Assembly (NCBI GenBank): GCA_030041735.1
Contig: JASIBA010000080.1
Span: 1-39,746 of the forward strand
From: Thermoplasmata archaeon
GTDB lineage: Archaea; Thermoplasmatota; Thermoplasmata; Lutacidiplasmatales; UBA184
Length of the DNA stretch: 39,746 bases
Reading direction: 5' to 3'
Both the position numbers and the translations under genes were made by a program. Within the stretch, counting starts at the first letter, position 1, and every line of letters begins with the position of its first letter. The notes beneath the pieces are model-generated. The model ran no database searches, had not been told where the DNA came from, and saw nothing but the letters and a program-made list of their open reading frames with translations. Below are positions 1 through 10,061 of the stretch, in pieces.

Positions 1-737
1 CCCGCCGCGCCGGCCTTGCCGGCGCCGCCGCTGCCGCCTTCGCCGCCGGTGCCGCCCCAGCCGCCGATCGCACCGGCGCCTCCGACGCCTCCGACCCCGC
101 CGGTCGCGAGGTTGTCCTCGAAGGTGTCGTTCGTGAGGGTAACGTTACCGGTAGAGATCCAGATCGCGCCGCCTTCGGCGGACCCGACGGACTGGCCCGC
201 GCCCGCGGCGACGACCGTACCGCCGTTCTTGCCGGCGGTCCCCGCCTTGCCCGCGTCGCCCTTGCCGCCGTTCGCCCCGTTATGACCGCCCGCTCCGTTG
301 GGTGCGTTGCTCCCGCTCGACCCGACGCCGCCGTTGGCGGACGACGCGCTCCCGTCGTACAGGCCCACGCCGTTGATCGTGAGCTGGCCGCCCGTGACCT
401 GGAAGAATTGCGTGCTGAAGTCTCCTTCGAACGTCACGAAGTAGCCGCCGGAGTCGATGACGATCGATAGGCCGGTCGGGATGGAGGCGAACGTGCTGAA
501 GTCGACCGTGCAGCTCTCGCCGTAGACGTACGTACCGCTCACCGTGATGTTCGAGAGGAGGCTGGCCGCCGTGCAGTTTGTGAGGGTCGTCGTCGGCTGG
601 CCCGCCGCCGACACCGCCAGCCGGGTCGAAGCGGGACCGGCGTTCAGCGCCCCTCCCGCGGTGGGGATCATTCCGATCACCACAAACGTGGTCAGCGCGA
701 TCACGATGGACATCCAGGTCAAGTTGTTCTTCGTCAC
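1..737 (-). CDS. Secreted Gly-rich (PGRS-like) surface protein, C-terminus missing
   Basis: The reading frame is open from a GTG at 737 to the left edge, so only about 245 N-terminal residues are visible. A basic-polar N-terminus (VTKNNLTW) leads into a hydrophobic stretch (MSIVIALTTFVVIGMIP) that reads as a signal peptide; an internal ATG at 713 is the alternative start. The mature part has beta-helix-like stretches (GGAIWISTGNVTLTNDTF) typical of parallel beta-helix surface proteins, and two Gly/Ala-rich blocks with GGxGGxGG spacing that resemble PE_PGRS or collagen-like low-complexity regions. It is probably exported and exposed on the cell surface. Function is unknown; resemblance to mycobacterial PGRS proteins is compositional only. 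Confidence 0.75.
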   Translation of the reverse strand, partial: MTKNNLTWMSIVIALTTFVVIGMIPTAGGALNAGPASTRLAVSAAGQPTTTLTNCTAASLLSNITVSGTYVYGESCTVDFSTFASIPTGLSIVIDSGGYFVTFEGDFSTQFFQVTGGQLTINGVGLYDGSASSANGGVGSSGSNAPNGAGGHNGANGGKGDAGKAGTAGKNGGTVVAAGAGQSVGSAEGGAIWISTGNVTLTNDTFEDNLATGGVGGVGGAGAIGGWGGTGGEGGSGGAGKAGAA

Positions 738-784
738 GTCGAGGCCCCCGGCCGCCCTGCGAACGAAGTGCGCCGCTACAAACC

Positions 785-825
785 TTACGGAACGGAAACT
801 CTATAGTTTCCCGTCCGGTCCGTAA
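785..825. promoter_or_regulatory. Nested inverted repeat in front of the Gly-rich protein gene
   Basis: Inner arms ggaaact (794-800) and agtttcc (805-811) are perfect complements around ctat; outer arms ttacgga (785-791) and tccgtaa (819-825) are also perfect. Read on the minus strand the centre gives CTATAGAG, a possible TATA element 60-70 bases before the start at 737. It also lies downstream of the CDGSH gene on the same strand, so it could be an operator, a promoter or a terminator-like structure. Confidence 0.45.
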
Positions 826-901
826 GTCACCTGGCCTCTATGGGTGCCGGGAAAAGTAGGGGGATTTCGAAGGGACCGGGTACGGGCGCGCACGCCGCGG
901 G

Positions 902-1603
902 CTACCGCGGCTCGATCCCGTCGCGGAACTCGATCGACGCGTGGCTGCCGTTGCAGAACGGCTTGTTGACCGACGCGCCGCAGCGGCAGAGGGTGAGCCG
1001 GTTCCGCCGCTCGTAGGGCGTTCCGTCAGGCGACTCGACCCGGATCCCGCCCCGCACCCACAGCGGTCCGCTCACCCCGAGGACCGGGTCCTCGACCACG
1101 CCGATCGACGGCGGCAGCTCCGGCTCGACCGCTTCACCGGTGACCTTGTCGTGCAGCACGAGCCGACCGGACGGGCATTGCGTTCCCTCGTGGATCACGA
1201 GCTCGCGGACCCTCGGGTCGTCGGTGCGACCGATGAGGGCCCAGATCTTCCCGCCGGGGTCGCAGAACCGGGCGAACGCGCACAGGTGCTCGGCGTCGCT
1301 CAGGACGTGCGTCGGGCCGTCCAGGCGCTCGGACTGGCGTTCGATCGGCCGCCGCGACGCCGTCTCGGTACCATCGAAGCCGATCTTTGCGTGCGTGCCA
1401 TCGCAGAACGGCTTGGTCTTGGACTGGCCGCAGCGGCAGAGGAAGTACTCCTCCTTCGCGTCGAACGAGCGGCCCTCCTTCCACTCCCAGGACTCCTTCC
1501 GCGCGTTCGCGACGATCCGCTGCACCGCGAGCGGGACTTTGCCCACGACGCGGTACGGCCCATCCTTCGTGACGACGATCTTCGGCTCGTCCTCCCCCGC
1601 CAT
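902..1603 (-). CDS. CDGSH iron-sulfur protein with two CDGSH motifs
   Basis: A protein of 233 residues starting at the ATG at 1603, chosen because GAGGAAGG lies just upstream and the open frame before it is low-complexity. The first CDGSH motif is C56-x-C58...C67-D-G-T-H71 (CRCGQSKTKPFCDGTH), the three-Cys one-His ligand set for a 2Fe-2S cluster. A middle segment with C-x6-FC and EGTQCPSGRLVLHDK resembles the domain usually found between the motifs in long prokaryotic members. The second motif near the C-terminus (CRCGASVNKPFCNGSH) keeps all ligands but has Asn for Asp after the third Cys. These are small redox or cluster-transfer proteins; the partner here is not evident. Confidence 0.88.
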   Translation of the reverse strand: MAGEDEPKIVVTKDGPYRVVGKVPLAVQRIVANARKESWEWKEGRSFDAKEEYFLCRCGQSKTKPFCDGTHAKIGFDGTETASRRPIERQSERLDGPTHVLSDAEHLCAFARFCDPGGKIWALIGRTDDPRVRELVIHEGTQCPSGRLVLHDKVTGEAVEPELPPSIGVVEDPVLGVSGPLWVRGGIRVESPDGTPYERRNRLTLCRCGASVNKPFCNGSHASIEFRDGIEPR

Positions 1604-1899
1604 GGCCCCTTCCTCGACGCCCGCACTCGCCGGGGCCTTAGAAAGGGTCGCGCACCCCGGCGCCACCGCGGGGGTTCTGAGCCCGCTCTCGGGCCGTCGG
1701 GTCCGGACCCGAGGGGACGGAGTCGGGGGCGATCTGTCGGTGACATGCGGTGCCGCGCGCGGTGGGGGCTCCCGCGCTCCACGTGCGTGCATGGCCAGCG
1801 AGAGGGGACCCTCGGCTTCGAGCCATCCGATGGGCTGTGGGGGGGGCGCAACCGGGGCCCCGACTATCGGGCCCAGGGAGCGTTGACACCGAGACGGCA
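1604..1899. other. Non-coding stretch upstream of the CDGSH gene
   Basis: No convincing gene was seen on either strand. On the minus strand CTTTCTAAGG near 1640 could be the TATA element of the CDGSH gene, about 37 bases before its start and consistent with a short leader carrying the Shine-Dalgarno-like GAGG. The rest is GC-rich without recognisable structure. Confidence 0.4.
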
Positions 1900-1923
1900 C
1901 CCCGGAGCGGATTCGAACCGCTG
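1900..1923 (-). repeat. tRNA 3'-end fragment (T-arm copy), possible attachment-site remnant
   Basis: Nineteen bases, gagcggattcgaaccgctg at 1905-1923, are identical to the T-arm of the intact tRNA-Gln at 4983-5001, in the same orientation; with one extra G the match extends leftward through ccccg to 1900. On the minus strand this reads as a complete T-stem and loop (AGCGG, TTCGAAT, CCGCT). No D-arm or anticodon arm could be found upstream, so it is not a full tRNA. Weak similarity continues to about 1936 (cgccgac, ggccag). It fits the displaced end of a tRNA left by integration, but a remnant of a different tRNA is also possible. Confidence 0.6.
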
Positions 1924-1952
1924 CGCCGACGGCCAGGAACAAAATCGACAAA

Positions 1953-1964
1953 CATTAAAGTAAT
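1953..1964 (+). promoter_or_regulatory. TATA-like element of the toxin-antitoxin pair
   Basis: The AT-rich cattaaagtaat is centred about 27 bases before the ATG at 1986. This is the spacing expected for a leaderless archaeal transcript beginning at or near the antitoxin start codon. Confidence 0.55.
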
Positions 1965-1985
1965 GCAGCGGCCCTCGGGTGCGCC

Positions 1986-2198
1986 ATGGCCGCGGATCCG
2001 ATCACGAGCCTCAGCATCCACACGTCGACGCTCCGAATGCTTCGACCCTTCAAACGCGGCGACATGACGTGGGATGACGTCCTGCTCGATTTCATCGAGG
2101 AGCACGTCCCGAAGGAGTTCCTGGAGGAGATGGTACACCGAGCCGAGGTACGTCCGCATGTCAGCCTCGCCGAGCTCCGCCGTCGGAGCCGGCTCTAG
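1986..2198 (+). CDS. Putative antitoxin of a type II toxin-antitoxin pair
   Basis: A 70-residue protein just before a RelE/ParE-like toxin gene (9-base gap). The N-terminus (ITSLSIHTSTLRMLRPF) looks like the beta-strand and first helix of a short ribbon-helix-helix DNA-binding domain, followed by TWDDVLLDFIEEHV, which resembles the second half of archaeal VapB/RelB-like antitoxins. The C-terminal 25 residues are charged and would be the toxin-binding tail. By analogy with the family it should bind and neutralise the toxin and repress its own promoter. The assignment rests mainly on gene order, size and this pattern. Confidence 0.75.
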   Translation: MAADPITSLSIHTSTLRMLRPFKRGDMTWDDVLLDFIEEHVPKEFLEEMVHRAEVRPHVSLAELRRRSRL

Positions 2199-2207
2199 GC
2201 GCGGCCC

Positions 2208-2492
2208 GTGGCTCGCGTGGAGTTCACCGACGAGGCGGACGCTCAGTTCCGTCGTCTCCCGCGCGCGGTGCAGATGGAGTACAACGAGATCTTCGACTGG
2301 CTCGAGCGGAACCCGCTTCGCCTGCCTCCGTGGATCGAGTCCAAACAGATCGGGGAGCGCAGGGGTCAGTCGGTCTTTCGAGTCCGCGTCGGGCGATTTC
2401 GAGCCATCTATTGCTTCGACGGCGACGTGGTCACTTTCACTCGGTTTCGAGACCGTCCCAACATACGGTACGGCGCCCAACCCAAATTCTGA
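2208..2492 (+). CDS. RelE/ParE-family toxin
   Basis: A 94-residue protein with a GTG start. The order VEFTDEADAQFRRLP, a helical middle (MEYNEIFDWLERNP), then FRVRVGRFRAIYCFDGDVVTF and a basic C-terminus matches the RelE/ParE fold; the RVRVGxFRxIY strand pair is its most characteristic stretch. RelE members cut mRNA in the ribosomal A site while ParE members poison gyrase; the sequence does not decide which. It follows its antitoxin in what is probably one transcript and sits inside the candidate island bounded by tRNA-Gln repeats, a common home for such modules. Confidence 0.85.
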   Translation: MARVEFTDEADAQFRRLPRAVQMEYNEIFDWLERNPLRLPPWIESKQIGERRGQSVFRVRVGRFRAIYCFDGDVVTFTRFRDRPNIRYGAQPKF

Positions 2493-3143
2493 TTCCGCTT
2501 ACCAGACCTAGGCCCGTCGGCTTCCCCCGGAGAGCACCCGTTCCTACGTTGGGGTTCCGGGAAGCGCGCCCTTCGGCGATCCAACCTGCCGCACGATGAA
2601 GGACCCCACACCTCGGTCCCCACGTAACGAACGCGCCCGAACCCGTCGACCCGTGGCAGGGCGAGTACTCCTGACTGATCCCGGCGGTGCCTCGGTGGAA
2701 GCGCCCTAGCCCTTCCAAGACCGTGGAGGTCGACGGAGGCGAAGGAGCCTTTCCCGCCCCGCTCGGGCTCTCTTCCACCCACCGATCGACCCTCCGCGGC
2801 GTCGGAGCGAGGAGGACCCTAGGGTCCGCGAGCGAGCGCTTCGGCTCGATAGCCCCGAGCGGGGTTCATAGGATTTCGAGTCAAGTGGGGCGATTTCCAA
2901 GGAGAAACCCTCGGCAGTCTGGGGCCGGAAAGGGGCTGGCCGGCCCGCTGCGGCCGGGTCCCCCCCGCATTCCCCGATCGGGAGAGAAACCTCGGGTGGC
3001 CGAGCCGATTAGTGGCTCCGCCGCAGCGTTCCCCGCCGGAACGCCGATGGAGTCGGAAATATTGTGACCCTGCGATTCTCCACGTCCAGGCAAGCCGCGT
3101 GAGCAGCTCTCAGCCGCAGTCCCGCGGCCAGCACCAAGCGGTC
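2493..3143. other. 650-base non-coding region with palindromes
   Basis: No open frame on either strand looks like a protein. Visible structures are a perfect 14-bp palindrome of ggaccct and agggtcc at 2814-2827, a 7-bp inverted repeat gggccgg/ccggccc (2922-2928 and 2940-2946), and the tRNA-end copy at 2849-2862. An AT-rich patch gtcggaaatattgtg lies at about 3052-3066. It could be the decayed end of an integrated element or hold an unrecognised RNA. Confidence 0.45.
2849..2862 (-). repeat. 14-nt exact copy of the tRNA-Gln 3' end
   Basis: atagccccgagcgg here is identical to 4975-4988, which covers the discriminator base, the 3' acceptor strand and the first T-stem bases of tRNA-Gln, in the same orientation. 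It lies 22 bases beyond a perfect 14-bp palindrome. Together with the longer copy at 1900-1923 it may mark a second, nested insertion boundary; chance is not excluded. Confidence 0.45.
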
Positions 3144-3794
3144 TCACGTAGACTCGGTACCGCCCGGCTTACGTCGCGGCCTCGGGTTCAGTCGCCGTGG
3201 AAGGAACAACCATAGCGCCATCGCCACAGAAGCCCCAATCGCGACAATGCCTGCCCCGGTGAAGGCGCTTGCCACGCCTTGCAGCAAACCCGGGATCGGA
3301 CAGAACACAGGATACTCTAACGAGAACTCCTGGCAGCTACTCTGAGATGCGACCCTGGACCCGAGAACGAGGAGACCGATTCCGAACGGAAGCAACGCCG
3401 CGGCCACCCACCGGAAACTCGGAAGGTGAAAGCTTCCGGAGCGACCCGTAAGGGTCGCCGGTCGCCTCTCACCACGCACCGGGCGCGTGACTGGTACCCA
3501 GTAGCCGGCGAAACCCACCAGCGACGCTGAAACCACTAGGGCGAGCAGATTGTAGAACACGTCTATGCCCCACGCACCCGGGCTGCTGTGGTAGTCGCCG
3601 GCAAACGACGTGGTCTCGACGAGGAACAGAGTAGTGAGGAACAGCGCAGCGCCGATCGTTACGACCGGGGTTCGGTTCTTGACGAGCGCCCCCCATAGGG
3701 CTGTCCACCGACTCTCGATTTCGTTTCCTGCGGGCATCAGTCTCGATATGTCAACTCGGACCCCGTCTCTCACACATAGTCGGCCGAGAAGCAA
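3144..3794 (-). CDS. Four-helix membrane protein of unknown function
   Basis: A protein of 216 residues from the start at 3794, or about 197 from an internal ATG at 3737 (MPAGNEIES). Four hydrophobic segments are visible: VVTIGAALFLTTLFLVE, FYNLLALVVSASLVGFAGYW, VAAALLPFGIGLLVLGS and GAGIVAIGASVAMALWLFL, ending in an Arg/Pro-rich cytoplasmic tail. The loop between helices 3 and 4 has two Cys. The longer start overlaps the end of the G1 peptidase gene by 25 bases on the same strand, suggesting co-transcription. No family was recognised. Base composition is lower in GC than the flanking chromosome, in keeping with foreign origin. Confidence 0.7.
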   Translation of the reverse strand: MLLGRLCVRDGVRVDISRLMPAGNEIESRWTALWGALVKNRTPVVTIGAALFLTTLFLVETTSFAGDYHSSPGAWGIDVFYNLLALVVSASLVGFAGYWVPVTRPVRGERRPATLTGRSGSFHLPSFRWVAAALLPFGIGLLVLGSRVASQSSCQEFSLEYPVFCPIPGLLQGVASAFTGAGIVAIGASVAMALWLFLPRRLNPRPRRKPGGTEST

Positions 3795-4881
3795 CTCCAG
3801 AAGGCAATACAGGAAGAGTTCCCGTACGTGATATCACTTACCCACACGTTCTTCGCGGAGTTCGGCTCGCCGTAATTCCCGTAGTTAAAGGGGTTCAGCG
3901 CGGGCAAATCACCGCTCGAACCGACCCCCATGTCCTGGAACGTCACGTGAGGAGTATAGGGTGGAGTGTCGTAGTAGCCGCCGCTATACCCCGGGTTCTC
4001 GACTATCCATTGCGCGTACACCGGAGCCCCCATCGACATCGACTGACTGCTGGTACAACTCTTACTCGATGTGTCATCGTAGATGGAGGTGTAGTAGGTA
4101 CCACTCGAGTACGAGACGTCCGCACGAATCGTATCCCCTGCCGAGGCTTCGAAGCAATTGGTAGCACCAGAGCTCGAGGGGCTGTAAAACTCGTACCAGA
4201 CCGGGTAGTCGGTGTATCCGCATAGCAACGAGCACTGAACCTGGGCATCGAAGCCCGTCTGCGCAATGCCACTATCGCCGTCGATTTCCGCTGTTTCCCC
4301 GACCCAGAAGGACACGTCACAAACGTAGGGCGGGCCGCAGCTCTCGCTTGGCGGCGCCTGCGCGGTAGGAACGTTCATTTGGACGCCTGGTGAAGCAGAG
4401 CTCTCAACTCCCCACCCGGACCATAGGTCATCGGGACCATACTGCGCGCTGCCAGACCCGCCGTACTGTATGTGCGCCCCGAGAACGCCTAAATTCGAGG
4501 GCGCTTCGGAGACGACAACGGAGGCCCCGAGGAGTGTGTTTGTCGCTCGATAGACCTCATTCACCGACGTCAGATCAACGGTACACGACGAGTCAGAGAA
4601 GTTCCACAAGAAGAATTGGCTGCTATGGGCGAGGCCAATTCCATCTCCGAGAGCAGCGGCCGCTGAGGCGAGCTGCTGAGACGCGAGCGCACTGTCGTTC
4701 GCCAAGGTCGAGTTCACATCGGCCTGAATGGCCCAAGACTCTTCCGAGAGCTCCGCCGTAGAGCATGTAAGGGGGGTGTCGACTGCGCTTCTGCAAAATG
4801 CACGGCTGCCCCGGCCATAGTCAGGGAGACCGTCATCACAGCAAACAGCCGACAGACTCCGCGCCAAAGACCAGGACGCAT
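3770..4881 (-). CDS. Secreted G1-family (glutamic, eqolisin-like) peptidase, frame split at poly-C
   Basis: The mature part contains the hallmarks of glutamic peptidase family G1: FWVGETAEIDG, then GIAQTGFD with the catalytic Gln (codon 4259-4261), VWYEFYSP, AGDTIRADV, and AQWIVENP with the catalytic Glu (codon 3998-4000). The Gln-Glu spacing of 87 residues is close to the 83 of scytalidoglutamic peptidase (Q53, E136). A good signal peptide (MRPGLWRGVCRLFAVMTVSL..AEAQ) starts at the ATG at 4881 but lies in another frame; the frames meet at CCCCCC (4771-4776), where a -1 slip or one extra C gives a 370-residue preprotein. The upstream continuation of the main frame runs through the tRNA and is not real. 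Family members are secreted acid proteases; activity here depends on whether the frame is restored. Confidence 0.78.
4771..4776 (-). repeat. Homopolymer C6 tract at the frame switch of the G1 peptidase
   Basis: Six Cs on the coding strand (gggggg on the plus strand) lie where the signal-peptide frame must pass to the mature-enzyme frame. One added C restores a continuous coding sequence. It is a natural place for slipped-strand change, for a sequencing or assembly error, or for a -1 ribosomal slip. Confidence 0.6.
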
Positions 4882-4975
4882 GGGACCACCACTGTCCCGA
4901 ACACGCGACGCTTTCAATAATGAAGCGCCAGGGGACGCCGACGATACGGTGACCCCCTCTCACTCGAAAAACGAA

Positions 4976-5048
4976 TAGCCCCGAGCGGATTCGAACCGCT
5001 GTCGCCGGCTCCAAAGGCCAGCATGCTTGGCCGCTACACCACGGGGCT
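4976..5048 (-). tRNA. tRNA-Gln (anticodon TTG)
   Basis: A 73-base cloverleaf: acceptor AGCCCCG pairs with CGGGGCT and the discriminator is A. The anticodon stem CTGGC/GCCGG encloses the loop CTTTGGA with anticodon TTG. The T-arm is AGCGG-TTCGAAT-CCGCT. CCA is not encoded, as is usual in archaea, and no intron is visible. Its 3' end faces the candidate island, and partial copies of its 3' part lie at 1900-1923 and 2849-2862. Confidence 0.95.
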
Positions 5049-5095
5049 AGGTCGGACAGCGGGCCGCCGCTACAAAAGAGGTCACACGGACCGGA

Positions 5096-6280
5096 TTAGC
5101 GGGCCAGCCTATTCTCCGCAGCGACGCGCGGTTCGACCGCCGGGCGCGGGATCGCGGCGAGCGCGAGGACCGGCAGGGCGACGAGCGCCGCGATCGCGGC
5201 AAAGTACCAGGCGACCGTGAAGCCCCAATCGACCGCGACGAATCCGAAGGCGATCGCCAGGCCGCTGCCGAGGAGGATCTGGACACCGTTGATCAACGCG
5301 AGCGAGAGGGCGAGCGTCTCGGGCTGCATCCCGGGGAGATACGAGGGCACCAGGTAGAGGTCCGCGAAGACAACCGACACCGCGAAGCCGAAGAACCCGA
5401 ACACGACCAGCAGGCCGACGAACGGGAGGTACGGTACCAGGAAGATCACGACGCCCGCCGGGATCCCCCAGGCCACGAGCAGGCGCCGGGACCCCTTCGC
5501 GCGCTCGCCCACCCACCCCCCGTACGGCCCCCCGACGACTTCGATGAGGATCAGCAACGTCGGCAAGGAGGCGGCCAGGGTGAGGCTCCAGCCCGGATGT
5601 TCCGTCGCGGCGAACTGGACCGTGTACTGCGCCAGGATGTAGCTCGCGGCCCAGAGTCCGGTGAGCGCGAGCGCGAGCGACCAGAGCGTCCGCGACCGGA
5701 GGAGCGGGGCGGCCGCCCTCCAGACCTCGGCCCGAGAACTCCCGCTCGGCGGAGCCGCGGTCGGCGGGAGGAAGACCGAGGCCGCGGCCGCAGCCACCAG
5801 GAGCGCCACGCCCCCGATGCCGAGCGCCCAGGGCCATCCCAGCGCCTCGCCGAGGACGGCGCCGGCCAGGATCCCGATGCCCGCGCCCACGCTGAACCCG
5901 GCGTTGTAGAGGCCGATGACCGGACCGCGAGACCCGGCGGGATAGTACGAGGCCACGAGCCCGAGGGCGGGCGCGAAGAAGAACGCGGCCCCGGCCCCGA
6001 CCCCGAACCGAAGGCCCGCGAGCACGATCCAGTTCGGCGCGAAGGCGGACGCCAACGCGAACGCTCCCATGATGACCAAGGCCGCGAGGCAGACGCGACG
6101 GTTCCCCCAGCGGAGCGCCGCGAACCCGGCCGGAAGCTGGAAGATCCCCGCGCCGGCGAGGAACGCCCCGAGCACGATGCCGAGCCGCTCCGTCCCGATC
6201 GAAAAGTCCGTGCCGATGAGCGGCAGCACGGCGCCCACGTTGTACCAGCTGAACGCGTAGATCGCGCGCGCGAGGACCAG
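5096..6280 (-). CDS. MFS transporter
   Basis: About 390 residues with roughly twelve hydrophobic helices. The first helix is LARAIYAFSWYNVGAVLPL; a loop with LRWGNRRVC after the second helix resembles MFS motif A. The substrate cannot be told. The start is unresolved: homologous-looking sequence begins near 6310, but the only ATG, GTG or TTG in frame before the first helix is a TTG at 6484, which would add a 68-residue unrelated extension inside the upstream hydrolase gene. The coordinate given is the CTG just before helix 1. It follows the MBL-fold gene on the same strand and is followed by tRNA-Gln, so it is the last gene of the operon. Confidence 0.8.
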   Translation of the reverse strand: MVLARAIYAFSWYNVGAVLPLIGTDFSIGTERLGIVLGAFLAGAGIFQLPAGFAALRWGNRRVCLAALVIMGAFALASAFAPNWIVLAGLRFGVGAGAAFFFAPALGLVASYYPAGSRGPVIGLYNAGFSVGAGIGILAGAVLGEALGWPWALGIGGVALLVAAAAASVFLPPTAAPPSGSSRAEVWRAAAPLLRSRTLWSLALALTGLWAASYILAQYTVQFAATEHPGWSLTLAASLPTLLILIEVVGGPYGGWVGERAKGSRRLLVAWGIPAGVVIFLVPYLPFVGLLVVFGFFGFAVSVVFADLYLVPSYLPGMQPETLALSLALINGVQILLGSGLAIAFGFVAVDWGFTVAWYFAAIAALVALPVLALAAIPRPAVEPRVAAENRLAR

Positions 6281-6326
6281 GGTGATCGCGCCGCCGTGCC
6301 GGCGAGCGTACGCGGTCGCCGTCGCC

Positions 6327-7271
6327 TCAACTCCTGCCGAGCAGTCCGTGCGTCTCGAAGTACCGGAGGAACCCCGCAGCCGCGAGATCGTAGCCCGACA
6401 CCATCGTCGACCGATCGTCCCGGCCCGGCGGGCCGGGCGAGACCCGGGCGGTCGACCGGTCGTGTTCTCGCAGCCGCTCCGCAACGAACGCCACCTCGCC
6501 GCGCTCCCGGGCCGCCGCGAGCGCGACGTCGCGCCAGTCCTCGACGATCCCGCGGTAGCGCGCGAGGTCCTCCGAACCGTCGGGGCTCGGGCCGAAGTGG
6601 CTGTAGAGCACCCGCGCCGGGTCGAGACGCCGCATCGCCTCGACGCTCGCGAACAGCGCCTCGAGATCGAGGTCGGGCGGCGGGACCGCCGGCCGCGCGT
6701 GCGCGCTGCGCTCCAGCCGCACGCCCGCGCCGTCTCCCGTGAACACGCCCCGGATCCGGGAGTCGAAGAACGCGAGGTGGTGTCGCGCGTGCCCCGGGGT
6801 CGCGAGCACCGAGAGCGTGCCGCCCCGGAGCGGAAACTCCTCCCCGCCGCGCAGCGCGACGATCCTTCCGGGCGTCACCGGGACGATCGGCCCCCACAGA
6901 GGCTCCGCCGCGGCGCCCCACGCGCGTCGCGCGCTGGCGATGAGCCGGGAGGGGTCGATCAGGTGGGGCACGCCCAGCTCGTGGGCGTAGAACGTGGCGT
7001 TCGGCAGCGCGTCGAGGAGGCTGCCGACGCCGCCGGCGTGATCGAGGTGGATGTGGGTCACGAAGACGTGGCGAACGGCCGCGCGGTCGACCCCGGCCCG
7101 TTCGAGGCCCGCCAGCAGCGGCTGCCGGCAGGTGGTCGGGCCGGTCTCCACGAGCGACCACCCCTCGTCCTCCGGTAGCAGGTAGGCCGCCACGAGGCCC
7201 TCCGTGTCCCGGAAGTCGAGGTCGAGCAGCTGGCGACCCTCCCCGAGCTCCAGCACGCGGGGTCGGGCCAC
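6327..7271 (-). CDS. MBL-fold metallohydrolase
   Basis: A 314-residue protein with the metallo-beta-lactamase-fold signature THIHLDHAGG (H73, H75, D77, H78), a later metal ligand in ATPGHARHH, and FTGDGAG supplying the bridging Asp. The N-terminus (VAAYLLPEDEGWSLVETGP) is the usual first beta-strands of glyoxalase-II-like or quorum-quenching-like hydrolases. The C-terminal third is helical, with a conserved-looking LYSHFGPSPDG. Such enzymes are cytoplasmic hydrolases using two Zn or Fe ions; the ester or thioester cut here is unknown. Ten bases separate it from the upstream protease gene, consistent with one operon. Confidence 0.88.
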   Translation of the reverse strand: MARPRVLELGEGRQLLDLDFRDTEGLVAAYLLPEDEGWSLVETGPTTCRQPLLAGLERAGVDRAAVRHVFVTHIHLDHAGGVGSLLDALPNATFYAHELGVPHLIDPSRLIASARRAWGAAAEPLWGPIVPVTPGRIVALRGGEEFPLRGGTLSVLATPGHARHHLAFFDSRIRGVFTGDGAGVRLERSAHARPAVPPPDLDLEALFASVEAMRRLDPARVLYSHFGPSPDGSEDLARYRGIVEDWRDVALAAARERGEVAFVAERLREHDRSTARVSPGPPGRDDRSTMVSGYDLAAAGFLRYFETHGLLGRS

Positions 7272-7281
7272 GGCGCCGCTC

Positions 7282-7986
7282 CTAGAGGATCGGGGCGCCG
7301 ACCAGGTAGATCGAGGCCCAGCAGACCGCCGCGGTGACCGCGGCGACGGCGAAGCCGATGGCCCAGGTCTTCGGGCTCCAGCGCAGGACCTTCGCGCCGT
7401 CGAGGGGGCCGAACGGGACCAGGTTGAACGCGGCGAAGAAGGCGTTGAAGTACGCCACCAGGATCAGCCAGAACCATAGCGGGCTCCCGGCGTACCACAA
7501 CCCGGCCGCACCGGCGTAGAACAGGGCGGCGAACCCGAGGTTCGAGGCCGGGCCGGCGAAGCTCGTCCGTCCCCATTCGCGGACGTCGCCCATGCCCCCG
7601 ACCACGGTGGCCCCCGGCGCGGCGAACAGGAAGCCGATGTACGCCGTGAAGATCGAGAGGAGGAGTCCGACCGGATACCATCGGAACTCCGCCCAGTACC
7701 CGTGGCGCTGGGCCGAGATCTTGTGGGCCATCTCGTGGCACACGAACGCGGTGAACGAGACCCCGGCCGCCGCGAGCACGACCGAGAGCGGCACCGAACC
7801 GAGGACGCCGAGGCCGAACCCCGAGAACAGGCCTCCGACCCACATGATCAGCACGAAGTCGAACGTGAGCACCAGGAAGGCGACCGTGATCTCCGCGATC
7901 TCGCGCGGGGAGGTGTGGAAGCCGCGCGTCGGGGTCGGCGACCACGAGTACGAGTAGGTGCCGGACGACGGGATCGTGTAGCTCAC
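7282..7986 (-). CDS. Site-2 protease-like membrane metallopeptidase (family M50)
   Basis: A 234-residue membrane protein with a GTG start whose GTGA overlaps the stop of the preceding gene. Helix 2 carries the zinc motif HEMAH (H84, E85, H88); the third ligand is in NLVPFGPLDG (D196), as in M50 peptidases. About six hydrophobic segments surround these motifs, and no PDZ domain is present. M50 enzymes cut transmembrane segments within the membrane, often releasing regulators. Its target is unknown; neighbours are a BtuF-like receptor and an MBL-fold hydrolase. Confidence 0.9.
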   Translation of the reverse strand: MSYTIPSSGTYSYSWSPTPTRGFHTSPREIAEITVAFLVLTFDFVLIMWVGGLFSGFGLGVLGSVPLSVVLAAAGVSFTAFVCHEMAHKISAQRHGYWAEFRWYPVGLLLSIFTAYIGFLFAAPGATVVGGMGDVREWGRTSFAGPASNLGFAALFYAGAAGLWYAGSPLWFWLILVAYFNAFFAAFNLVPFGPLDGAKVLRWSPKTWAIGFAVAAVTAAVCWASIYLVGAPIL

Positions 7987-8891
7987 GCCGCGGCCTCCCC
8001 CGCGGCCGGGCCGTACGCCGCGTACGGCATCGGGGGCGCCCAGTCCGTGGATCGCAACAGATGCCGCAGGAGGTCGACCCCGTCGGCGAGCCGCGGTCCG
8101 GGACGGGAGAAGTACGCCTCGTCCGCGAGGAAGACCCCTCGCCCGGGCCGCAGGGCGCCCACGGCTTCGCGGAGCAGCGGATGCTCCAGCTCGCGCCGCG
8201 TCCGCTCGACCGAGAAGCTGCAGGGGCTCAGCACGACCAGGTCGGCAGCCATCGCGGCGAGCTCCGACCAGCTCGTCCGCACCCCGGTCCGCCCCGAACG
8301 GGGTCCGAGGGTGGTGCCACCTGCGGCCCGGATGAGATCCGGGACCCAGAGGCCGGCGAGGATCGGCGGGTCCAACCACTCCACGACCGCGACGCGCGCG
8401 GGCGTCCCCGACCGGCGACTCGGCCGGCTACGCGCCCGTAGACGGCCGGAGAGCTCCCGCCCCGCATCGGGATCGTCGATCTCCCGGGCGATCTGCGCGA
8501 CTGTTTCCCATACGCCCGCGAGCGAGCGCGGGGTCAGCGAGACGATGCGGGGCGCCACGTCGGCGATGGCACACGCGGCGGCCACCTCGGCCTCTGTGAC
8601 CGAGCAGACCCCACACAGGTCCTGGGTGAGGATCAGGTCCGGCCGCAGCCGGCGCAGCAGATCGATGTCCAGCTCGTAGAGGCTCTCCTTCCTCTTCCGG
8701 GCCGCCTGGACCCTCCGATCGATCTCGGCGGACGGCCGATCCGAGTCGAGCGTGCGCGGCCGCATGACGACCGGAAGGCCCGCGACGCTCGCCGGATAAT
8801 CGCACTCGGCGCTGCGTCCGACGAGCTCCGGTTCGTGCCCCAGGGCGCATGCGATCTCGGTGGCGCTCGGGAGCACGGAGACGATGCGCAT
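7983..8891 (-). CDS. BtuF-like (helical backbone metal receptor) protein
   Basis: A 302-residue protein that begins MRIVSVLPSATEIACALG, the typical first strand and helix of the cobalamin/siderophore-type periplasmic-binding superfamily (BtuF/FecB). Further family marks are LRPDLILTQDLCGVCSV and the C-terminal half starting VAVVEWLDPPILAG. It has no signal peptide or lipobox, so it belongs to the cytoplasmic-looking BtuF-like group rather than being a classic surface-bound receptor. No ABC permease or ATPase is adjacent. It starts 36 bases after the TPR gene and overlaps the next gene by 4 bases. Ligand is unknown; cobalamin is the family default. Confidence 0.82.
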   Translation of the reverse strand: MRIVSVLPSATEIACALGHEPELVGRSAECDYPASVAGLPVVMRPRTLDSDRPSAEIDRRVQAARKRKESLYELDIDLLRRLRPDLILTQDLCGVCSVTEAEVAAACAIADVAPRIVSLTPRSLAGVWETVAQIAREIDDPDAGRELSGRLRARSRPSRRSGTPARVAVVEWLDPPILAGLWVPDLIRAAGGTTLGPRSGRTGVRTSWSELAAMAADLVVLSPCSFSVERTRRELEHPLLREAVGALRPGRGVFLADEAYFSRPGPRLADGVDLLRHLLRSTDWAPPMPYAAYGPAAGEAAA

Positions 8892-8927
8892 CGCCGTCGA
8901 CGTCCGAGCTTCGGAGCCGGCGCGGCC

Positions 8928-10061
8928 CTACTTACGTTTGCGGTTCGCCGGCCGGCGTGCCGGGGTCCGGGGCTTCGCCACGGCCGTCGTCTTGCGCACC
9001 GGGCGTCGTGCGGGCCGCCGCGCCGGCGATCGCTTCGGGACCGGTGCCCGAACGGGACGCCGCCGGGGAGCGGGGGCCCGGCGCGGTCCCGGCTCCGGGA
9101 CACCCGGGAGGGCCGGCGCCGGGAGGCCCAGGTGCTGGCAGAGTGCGCTCTCCCGTTCGAAGGAGAGTCCCAGACGACGGGATTCCTCTCGCTCGCGCTC
9201 GGCGGCGGGGCCCTCGCCCGTGCGTTCGAGCGCGACCGCGTGGAGGAAGCGGAGTTGCGGGTCCTCGGGACTCGACGCCAGCATCGCCTCGAGCTCGACG
9301 CGGGCCGCCGGCCAGTCCCCCAGGTCGACCAGCGCGGCGACCAGGTGGGCGCGCACCTCGACCCGTGCCTCGTCCTCGCCCAGGAGCGTCCGGTAGATCG
9401 CGATCTCCTCGCGGGGCTTGGCCCGGGCGCCGAGGACCGCCGCGAGCCCGAGCCGGGCGTCGAGGTCGTCCGGTCGCGTGGTGAGGATCTCCTGGAAAAG
9501 GCGCTCGGCATCGGCCACGAGCCCGAGCCCGAGGAGGGAGCGCGCGATGCCGATGCGCGCCGGCCCGAATCCGTCCTTCATGTCCAGCGCCTGACGATAG
9601 AAGCGCAGCGCCAGGGCCGGCACACCCCAGTCCAGCCACGTGCGGGCCCGTCCCATGACCGCGTCCAGCTGCTGGGCGCTCGGGAGCAGGCGGGCTCGGG
9701 GCTCGGGCGGGGGCCGGGGCTCTTCGCCGAGATAGGACTCGAGGCCGAGCTGCCGGGCGAGCTCGGCGAAGCGGGAACCCTCCACCAGCGTCCCGGAGCG
9801 CTGAAGGACCTCTGCGGTGAGCGCGAGCGGGAGACGTCCCGGGGTCAGCACGACCAGCCGGGGGGAGCCGGCGCCGACGTCCCCGGCGATCCGGCGGATG
9901 CCCTCCAAGGAGACCTCGTTGGGGTCCTCCAGAAACGCGTAGAGGAATCCGTCGCCCGTCCGCAGGACCAACCCTTCGGGGATCGTCTTCGCGGCGTCCA
10001 TCCGCTGGCCCATGGCCGCGACCAGCCCGTTGGCCAGCTGGACGAACGTCGGCGACGCCAT
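8928..10061 (-). CDS. TPR-repeat protein with Arg/Lys/Pro-rich tail
   Basis: A 377-residue protein. The start at the ATG at 10061 (MASPTFVQLANGL) was chosen because a TATA box is centred 27 bases upstream; an in-frame ATG at 10085 overlaps that box. Residues up to about 130 form an alpha/beta domain resembling a restriction-endonuclease-like or sensor fold, not firmly identified. The middle contains about four tetratricopeptide-like repeats (ALALRFYRQALDMKDGFGPA; AERLFQEILTTRPDDLDARL). The last 55 residues are almost only Arg, Pro, Ala and Lys, like a histone H1 tail, and would bind nucleic acid or acidic surfaces. It heads the minus-strand operon. Confidence 0.8.
   Translation of the reverse strand: MASPTFVQLANGLVAAMGQRMDAAKTIPEGLVLRTGDGFLYAFLEDPNEVSLEGIRRIAGDVGAGSPRLVVLTPGRLPLALTAEVLQRSGTLVEGSRFAELARQLGLESYLGEEPRPPPEPRARLLPSAQQLDAVMGRARTWLDWGVPALALRFYRQALDMKDGFGPARIGIARSLLGLGLVADAERLFQEILTTRPDDLDARLGLAAVLGARAKPREEIAIYRTLLGEDEARVEVRAHLVAALVDLGDWPAARVELEAMLASSPEDPQLRFLHAVALERTGEGPAAEREREESRRLGLSFERESALCQHLGLPAPALPGVPEPGPRRAPAPRRRPVRAPVPKRSPARRPARRPVRKTTAVAKPRTPARRPANRKRK

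Follow-up and report, generated by a model that had tools for sequence, protein, structure and literature searches.

Why should the end of a tRNA gene recur, in the same orientation, some distance beyond the gene itself and with small accessory genes in between? This question is raised by contig JASIBA010000080.1 of the Thermoplasmata archaeon assembly GCA_030041735.1, a metagenome-assembled genome (MAG) of 1.85 Mb in 164 contigs that is 84% complete. The stretch analysed, called the window here, comprises 39,746 nucleotides of this contig (C50 in our numbering), and the interval in question lies between a displaced tRNA-Gln end and the intact tRNA-Gln(TTG) gene (Table 1). An earlier note, made from the letters of the window, had read this interval as one element inserted into the tRNA gene by a tyrosine integrase. 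Site-specific insertion is borne out by the conserved flanks of the closest relative, by the tail-to-tail recurrence of the same units and by the integrases of relatives, whereas the single element gives way to at least two stacked ones. We conclude, with a probability of about 0.8, that integrase-less mobile cassettes, inserted site-specifically at tRNA-Gln, make up the interval as a short tandem array.

Displaced ends of tRNA-Gln

The outermost repeat, at 1898-1923, matches the end of tRNA-Gln at 96% over 23 nt without a gap, one base being missing near its start. Rfam finds no tRNA besides tRNA-Gln in positions 1-8000 of the window, and the 22-nt 3'-end motif of tRNA-Gln(TTG), counted with up to three mismatches, occurs four times in the whole genome (control 0): in the tRNA itself, at 1899 in the window, and twice on contig C113, which has no intact tRNA-Gln. 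The repeat is thus neither part of another tRNA nor a common motif, the two findings that the earlier note had named as refuting its reading. The attachment core, which comprises the tRNA 3' end and the T-arm, contains a 7-nt T-loop enclosed by the T-stem AGCGG/CCGCT.

A survey of tRNA-Gln loci in genomes of the same genus, using a 13-nt core with up to one mismatch on both sides and both strands of the tRNA, gave 26 copies on the 3' side and the same strand, and 0 in each of three controls (the opposite strand on the 3' side and both strands on the 5' side). A 3' flank of 1.5 kb or more is available for 31 loci, and 16 of these carry one or more displaced sites on that side. The 34 elements bounded by displaced copies have a median length of 1.7 kb and a GC content of 63.5%, compared with 71.0% in the flank.

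As a control, the tails of tRNA-Lys and tRNA-Val mostly have one exact match per genome, and a few genomes hold extra copies (G049:C220; G022:C20, where the copy adjoins a sister integrase; and G041:C7; G, C and L numbers are our labels for genomes, contigs and loci). Because of these few extra tails, tRNA-Gln is regarded as the main insertion site and not the sole one. DNA resembling one of the recurrent units described below, element D, adjoins tRNA-Lys in L178 (G059:C36) and lies about 330 nt from tRNA-Val in L179 (G022:C8); together with the displaced Lys and Val tails, this means that related elements use other tRNAs.

Conserved flanks and unrelated inserts

From the tRNA end outward, 9314 bp of the window align with the closest relative, G017, at 86.8%, and in the left flank 1927 bp align at 91.9% up to the outermost repeat. 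Between these conserved flanks the two inserts have nothing in common: that of G017 carries a unit with a PIN toxin and another with a different antitoxin/ParE pair. The same gene order in most relatives without tRNA repeats, which by the earlier note would have refuted its reading, is the opposite of what is seen in G017, namely conserved flanks, a different insert, and repeats present. A similar one-sided pattern is found between G001 and G002: they align at 96.0% identity for 6001 bp 5' of the tRNA, and 3' of it no match is detectable.

The 14-nt copy of the tRNA end at 2849-2862, which the earlier note had seen as splitting the interval, is a real junction. Positions 2779-2862 match the far end of a unit on C113 at 83%, and the 14-nt copy is therefore the worn right end of the left-hand element, B. 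At the homologous point C113 carries a full-length repeat, or, in the MAG 'Thermoplasmata archaeon isolate JOPF087' (found by its toxin match), the tRNA itself takes this place. The first 17 nt of the site at 2850-2866 are the same as those of a site in G015 that lies 4923 nt from the tRNA.

Element B is 83-85% identical to its copies on C113 and in JOPF087 (83% for window positions 1901-2774 against C113 in a DNA search of the window's own genome), and its antitoxin and toxin share 99% and 88% amino-acid identity, respectively, with those of C113. There the order is the antitoxin/ParE pair, then an intact methyltransferase, then a second displaced tRNA end; in JOPF087, B with its methyltransferase directly adjoins tRNA-Gln. 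These two copies are 86.5% identical over 1597 bp, tail to tail. Since B of the window ends at 2849 and is homologous to these tail-to-tail units, element A, between B and the tRNA, appears to be a separate and more recent insertion. It is absent from G017, even though the flanks of G017 are orthologous.

Longer arrays are found in relatives. G015 (L103, G015:C121) has four tandem units of 1.9-2.6 kb, and in JOPF087 four displaced sites follow one another; there an intact cassette adjoins the tRNA, and some of the units further out contain broken genes.

Probable movement of cassettes between species

Cassette families C, D, E and F, a VapC cassette and a nucleotidyltransferase cassette are each common to several species and end at the repeats. 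Integrase-less units with the same ends recur in three contexts for B, three for C and four for D. Comparison with the chromosome relies on a neighbouring metallo-beta-lactamase-fold (MBL) gene as the only yardstick, because the identities of the 1-kb flanks are close to the unrelated baseline (63-73%). By this measure, G043 and G035 share 924 bp of element D at 100% identity, compared with 73.9% for the MBL gene; the values are 94.4% and 77.7% between G016 and G043, and for element C 90.3% and 74.4% between G017 and G037. In other words, the cassettes are more alike than their hosts.

Integrases and putative arm motifs

No integrase lies within the interval, as the earlier note had observed; the PF00589 matches of this genome are on contigs C10, C26 and C34. 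A few relatives have tyrosine integrases immediately within a displaced site or adjoining tRNA-Gln: complete ones in G004, G007 and G039, and a fragment in G035. These integrases belong to the tyrosine recombinase family (PF00589, E 5.7e-13), are 51% identical to the first sequence of their alignment, and conserve the motifs GLRR, HxLRRT and GHEDTR..Y, which correspond to the R, H-x-x-R and Y catalytic motifs. On the integron-integrase model TIGR02249 they score 20.5-41.8 bits against a cut-off of 265. Because such tRNA-Gln-specific integrases flank these sites in a few relatives, insertion in trans, as cassettes without an integrase, is the best reading of the elements of the window. In G007, a 9.5 kb element at tRNA-Gln (L077, G007:C143, positions 106-9632) bears an integrase and a second integrase-like gene, and is a candidate autonomous partner of the cassettes.

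Two classes of site can be told apart by short motifs at fixed distances from the core. TTTGY stands at +36 from the core start in integrase-type sites, and a second class has GGGWWWC at +36 to +38 (12 of 43 displaced sites). On the other side, GTRWCCC is found in 4 of 77 distinct upstream junction flanks, always at -27 or -26, and one of these is the right end of element A. The exact class-2 pattern occurs in 4 of 78 genomes, always at the tRNA-Gln locus. The motifs were spotted by eye, and their counts come from the very data in which they were spotted; we treat them only as a lead to putative arms.

How the array may have been built

In the mechanism we propose, tRNA-Gln is the integration target and would be rebuilt at every insertion. 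Each cassette would bring an attachment site that supplies the tRNA 3' end and T-arm, and a tyrosine integrase would recombine this site, made of TAGCCCCGAGCGGATTCGAACC, into the T-arm of tRNA-Gln, presumably with a crossover in the T-loop and through a circular intermediate, catalysis being provided in trans by integrases such as those found in relatives. The incoming copy would restore the tRNA, while the old end is displaced outward and kept as a repeat. Repeated rounds could thus build an array whose newest cassette touches the tRNA, and A would be the newer and B the older arrival in the window.

Table 1. Features of the tRNA-Gln interval, with positions in the window
Feature	Position	Strand	Size or sequence	Basis or remark
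Outermost displaced tRNA-Gln end, left limit of array	1898..1923	same orientation as tRNA		G017 left-flank homology stops here
Element B, toxin-antitoxin cassette	1898..2849		0.95 kb	most of methyltransferase gene lost
Antitoxin	1986..2198	plus		ORF (open reading frame); no Pfam match
ParE/RelE-type toxin (predicted)	2208..2492	plus		Pfam ParE_toxin, E 6.8e-4
Methyltransferase N-terminal remnant	2615..2773	plus		tblastn 57% over 53 aa
Second displaced site, degenerate	2850..2866		TAGCCCCGAGCGGGGTT	right end of element B and left end of element A
Element A	2850..4975		2.1 kb, GC 60.9%	bounded by tRNA end and repeat 2850
Predicted membrane protein, no family	3144..3794	minus		ORF; no Pfam match
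Secreted A4-type (eqolisin-like) peptidase gene	3770..4917	minus		Pfam Peptidase_A4, E 4.1e-15; ORFs
Putative arm motif	4949..4955	plus	GTGACCC	27 nt before core, right end of element A
Attachment core (tRNA 3' end plus T-arm)	4976..5000		TAGCCCCGAGCGGATTCGAACCGCT (plus-strand reading)	in all displaced copies
tRNA-Gln(TTG)	about 4976-5048	minus		ARAGORN; Rfam tRNA, E 4.8e-11

Weighing the explanations

Several observations weigh against an array of mobile cassettes. About half of the 31 loci have no recognisable repeat. Comparison of the tRNA-Gln locus in relatives, as the earlier note had proposed, gave matching flanks in G017, but a search of the relatives for a true empty site, with 1898 joined to 4976, found none; G017 carries its own insert, and no excised circle was seen. 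In the window's own genome, 84% complete, no integrase of the tRNA-Gln family was found. In G033, G059 and G041 the antitoxin/ParE pair next to tRNA-Gln differs as much as the flanks do and may have been inherited vertically. Finally, the near-identical copies of element D end at contig breaks, and assembly artefacts are still a conceivable source of them.

Could the units instead be the wrecks of autonomous, integrase-bearing elements that are no longer mobile? Tandem accretion of decayed elements is known in bacteria (PMC5704250), an integrase fragment adjoins a displaced site in G035, the outer units have degenerate sites and broken genes, and the methyltransferase of the window is truncated. 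We nevertheless consider this explanation doubtful, for the same integrase-less units recur with the same ends in several species, some copies being 90-100% identical where the flanking gene is 74-78% identical, and repeated identical compact units are not expected from random decay. For families B, C and D, the recurrence of such units speaks rather for ones that always lacked the enzyme. The phrase "decayed or mobilisable remnant" in the earlier note can be refined in the same direction: decay suits the methyltransferase, which is truncated, and possibly the peptidase gene with its frame break, but nothing else. A mobilisable integrase-less cassette fits better, because toxin and antitoxin form an intact unit that is kept, likewise without an integrase, in different species.

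An integron, or a cluster of attC sites lacking an integrase (CALIN), would also account for cassettes of one to three genes with a repeated site between them, a fixed insertion point, many toxin-antitoxin pairs and the four tandem cassettes of G015, and integrons are known in Archaea (PMC9668308). This identity is very improbable, however, since the sites are copies of a tRNA end, the genes lie on both strands, and the integrases reach only 20-42 bits on the integron-integrase model; on the integrase profile and the type of site it was rejected. An Rfam search of the sites gave only tRNAs, no search aimed at attC having been made. Shuffling of neighbouring DNA by homologous recombination between the tRNA repeats, without any site-specific recombinase, could explain the uncertain position of C113 by array exchange, as well as some internal changes. 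Yet repeats of about 22 nt are short for this process, which does not predict one-sided accumulation, and conserved arm-like motifs stand at fixed distances with integrases at the same sites; we regard it as improbable. That a chance repeat lies beside an ordinary low-GC region of the chromosome might be argued from the two mismatches in 22 nt of the outer repeat and the mere 14-17 matching bases of the inner one. Against a genome-wide count of 4 versus 0 in the control, a strand and side bias of 26 to 0, and orthologous flanks around unrelated inserts in the window and G017, such a coincidence is hardly credible. A provirus was rejected as well: the viral contigs have neither the exact 22-nt tail nor a relative of the tRNA-Gln integrase.

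Relation to known systems

Accretion at tRNA ends is known from bacteria in more than one form. In additive flexible genomic islands (fGIs), such as the tRNA-Lys fGI-2 of 'Ca. Methylopumilus', tRNA-end repeats recur (PMC10872708); as in the present array, the direct repeats vary in number and represent the last ~20 nt of one tRNA gene, and insertions at a fixed site lengthen the island with variable cargo. Those islands are bacterial and range from 330 bp to 42 kb with 1-63 coding sequences (PMC10872708), whereas the archaeal units have a median of 1.7 kb, often carry toxin-antitoxin genes, can be followed between species, and come with candidate arms and matching integrases. Cis-mobilisable elements (CIMEs) and the tandem accretion of integrative and conjugative or integrative and mobilisable elements (ICEs/IMEs) are another case of site-specific accretion in bacteria (PMC5704250). 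Like the present units, CIMEs are stacked at a tRNA 3' end and lack an integrase between their attachment (att) sites, a feature of CIMEs that we also find here, and mobilisation by a related integrase (PMC5704250) would be a further likeness. They differ in being decay products of conjugative or mobilisable elements (PMC5704250); no conjugation or mobilisation genes were recognised among the selected unit proteins scanned, which was not a systematic search.

Archaeal integrons and CALINs (PMC9668308) likewise consist of small tandem cassettes with sites between them, toxin-antitoxin cargo and mostly no integrase nearby; the present array differs in its tRNA-end site, in having genes in both orientations, and in an integrase that is not IntI. 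The text of that paper makes no mention of Thermoplasmat* (PMC9668308). Tycheposons of Prochlorococcus, in the account given in the fGI-2 paper (PMC10872708), are tRNA-anchored cargo elements of 4-200 kb with a tyrosine recombinase. Going by that account, cargo anchored at a tRNA and the involvement of a tyrosine recombinase are shared features; tycheposons are large, and the present units are mostly 0.5-2.5 kb and carry no recombinase. The elements of the window, at 0.95 and 2.1 kb and without a recombinase, were accordingly not identified as tycheposons.

Compared with the open-access literature, the archaeal case, the small size of the units and the traceable exchange between species are new, and the accretion arrangement itself is known from bacteria. 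A more far-reaching reading, which we offer tentatively and would not expect to hold in full, is that of an integron-like archaeal cassette system on a tRNA platform, with compact cassettes of one to three genes that were never autonomous and are spread between species by integrases in trans; as part of the same tentative reading, the sites would be two-armed, with GTRWCCC ~27 nt before the core and GGGATAC ~37 nt after the core start. If the cassettes move as we propose, uncultured Archaea can pass small accessory genes, toxin-antitoxin pairs above all, from one to another even where no virus, plasmid or integron is visible. The locus offers a testable case of mobility in trans, and the position-specific arms and candidate integrases open the question of specificity to direct testing. 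For annotation, a simple rule follows: look for displaced tails 3' of tRNA genes, which resolves "intergenic junk" into dated cassettes.

Genes carried by the cassettes

The toxin-antitoxin pair, membrane protein and peptidase listed in the earlier note are all present as open reading frames. The toxin at 2208-2492 falls below the curated ParE family cut-off (20.6 bits against 23); because its relative in G010 scores 36.9 bits (ParE, E 5.8e-9), it is likely, judging from sequence, a remote member of the ParE family. The antitoxin of the related G010 cassette has a weak match to DUF7557 (E 1.1e-4, below cut-off), as has the methyltransferase, intact in C113 and JOPF087, to Methyltransf_25 (E 1.5e-5, also below cut-off). 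In element A, the dip in GC noted earlier is real but shallower than the ~55% judged by eye: computed GC is 60.1% over 3050-4975, compared with 70.1% to the left and 72.7% to the right. In the peptidase gene, the catalytic part at 3773-4915 is read in one frame (ORF 3770-5014) and the likely signal peptide, around 4714-4917, in another (ORF 4714-4917). Six consecutive G lie between the two, and the frame break reflects either decay or an assembly error.

The cargo in relatives includes VapC-type PIN toxins, ParE-type pairs, a Fic protein, methyltransferases, guanylate-cyclase/TPR proteins, a transporter and a demethylubiquinone methyltransferase-like protein. In G015, three guanylate-cyclase-domain proteins and a transporter occupy four neighbouring units, and cyclase cassettes are also present in G008 and JOPF087. 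L091 (G031) and L106 (G021) have a two-gene cassette in common, encoding a nucleotidyltransferase-like and a winged-helix-like protein; it has no Pfam or NCBIfam match and looks AbiE-like by eye.

Contig ends

On C113 (L006), a piece of array comprising the end of D followed by B and C meets a Gly-rich repeat gene at ~1038-1053, the junction lying ~65-80 nt past the stop codon of this gene. The same gene end in G017 has a HAD-type gene before it and no array. The start of the window falls inside the N-terminal part of a similar Gly-rich gene, and C113 may join the left end of the window or be a chimera. Very Gly-rich repeat proteins with a PE-PGRS-like composition stand at contig ends (window 3-737 and L006 3-959), and such repeats probably break assemblies in this group.

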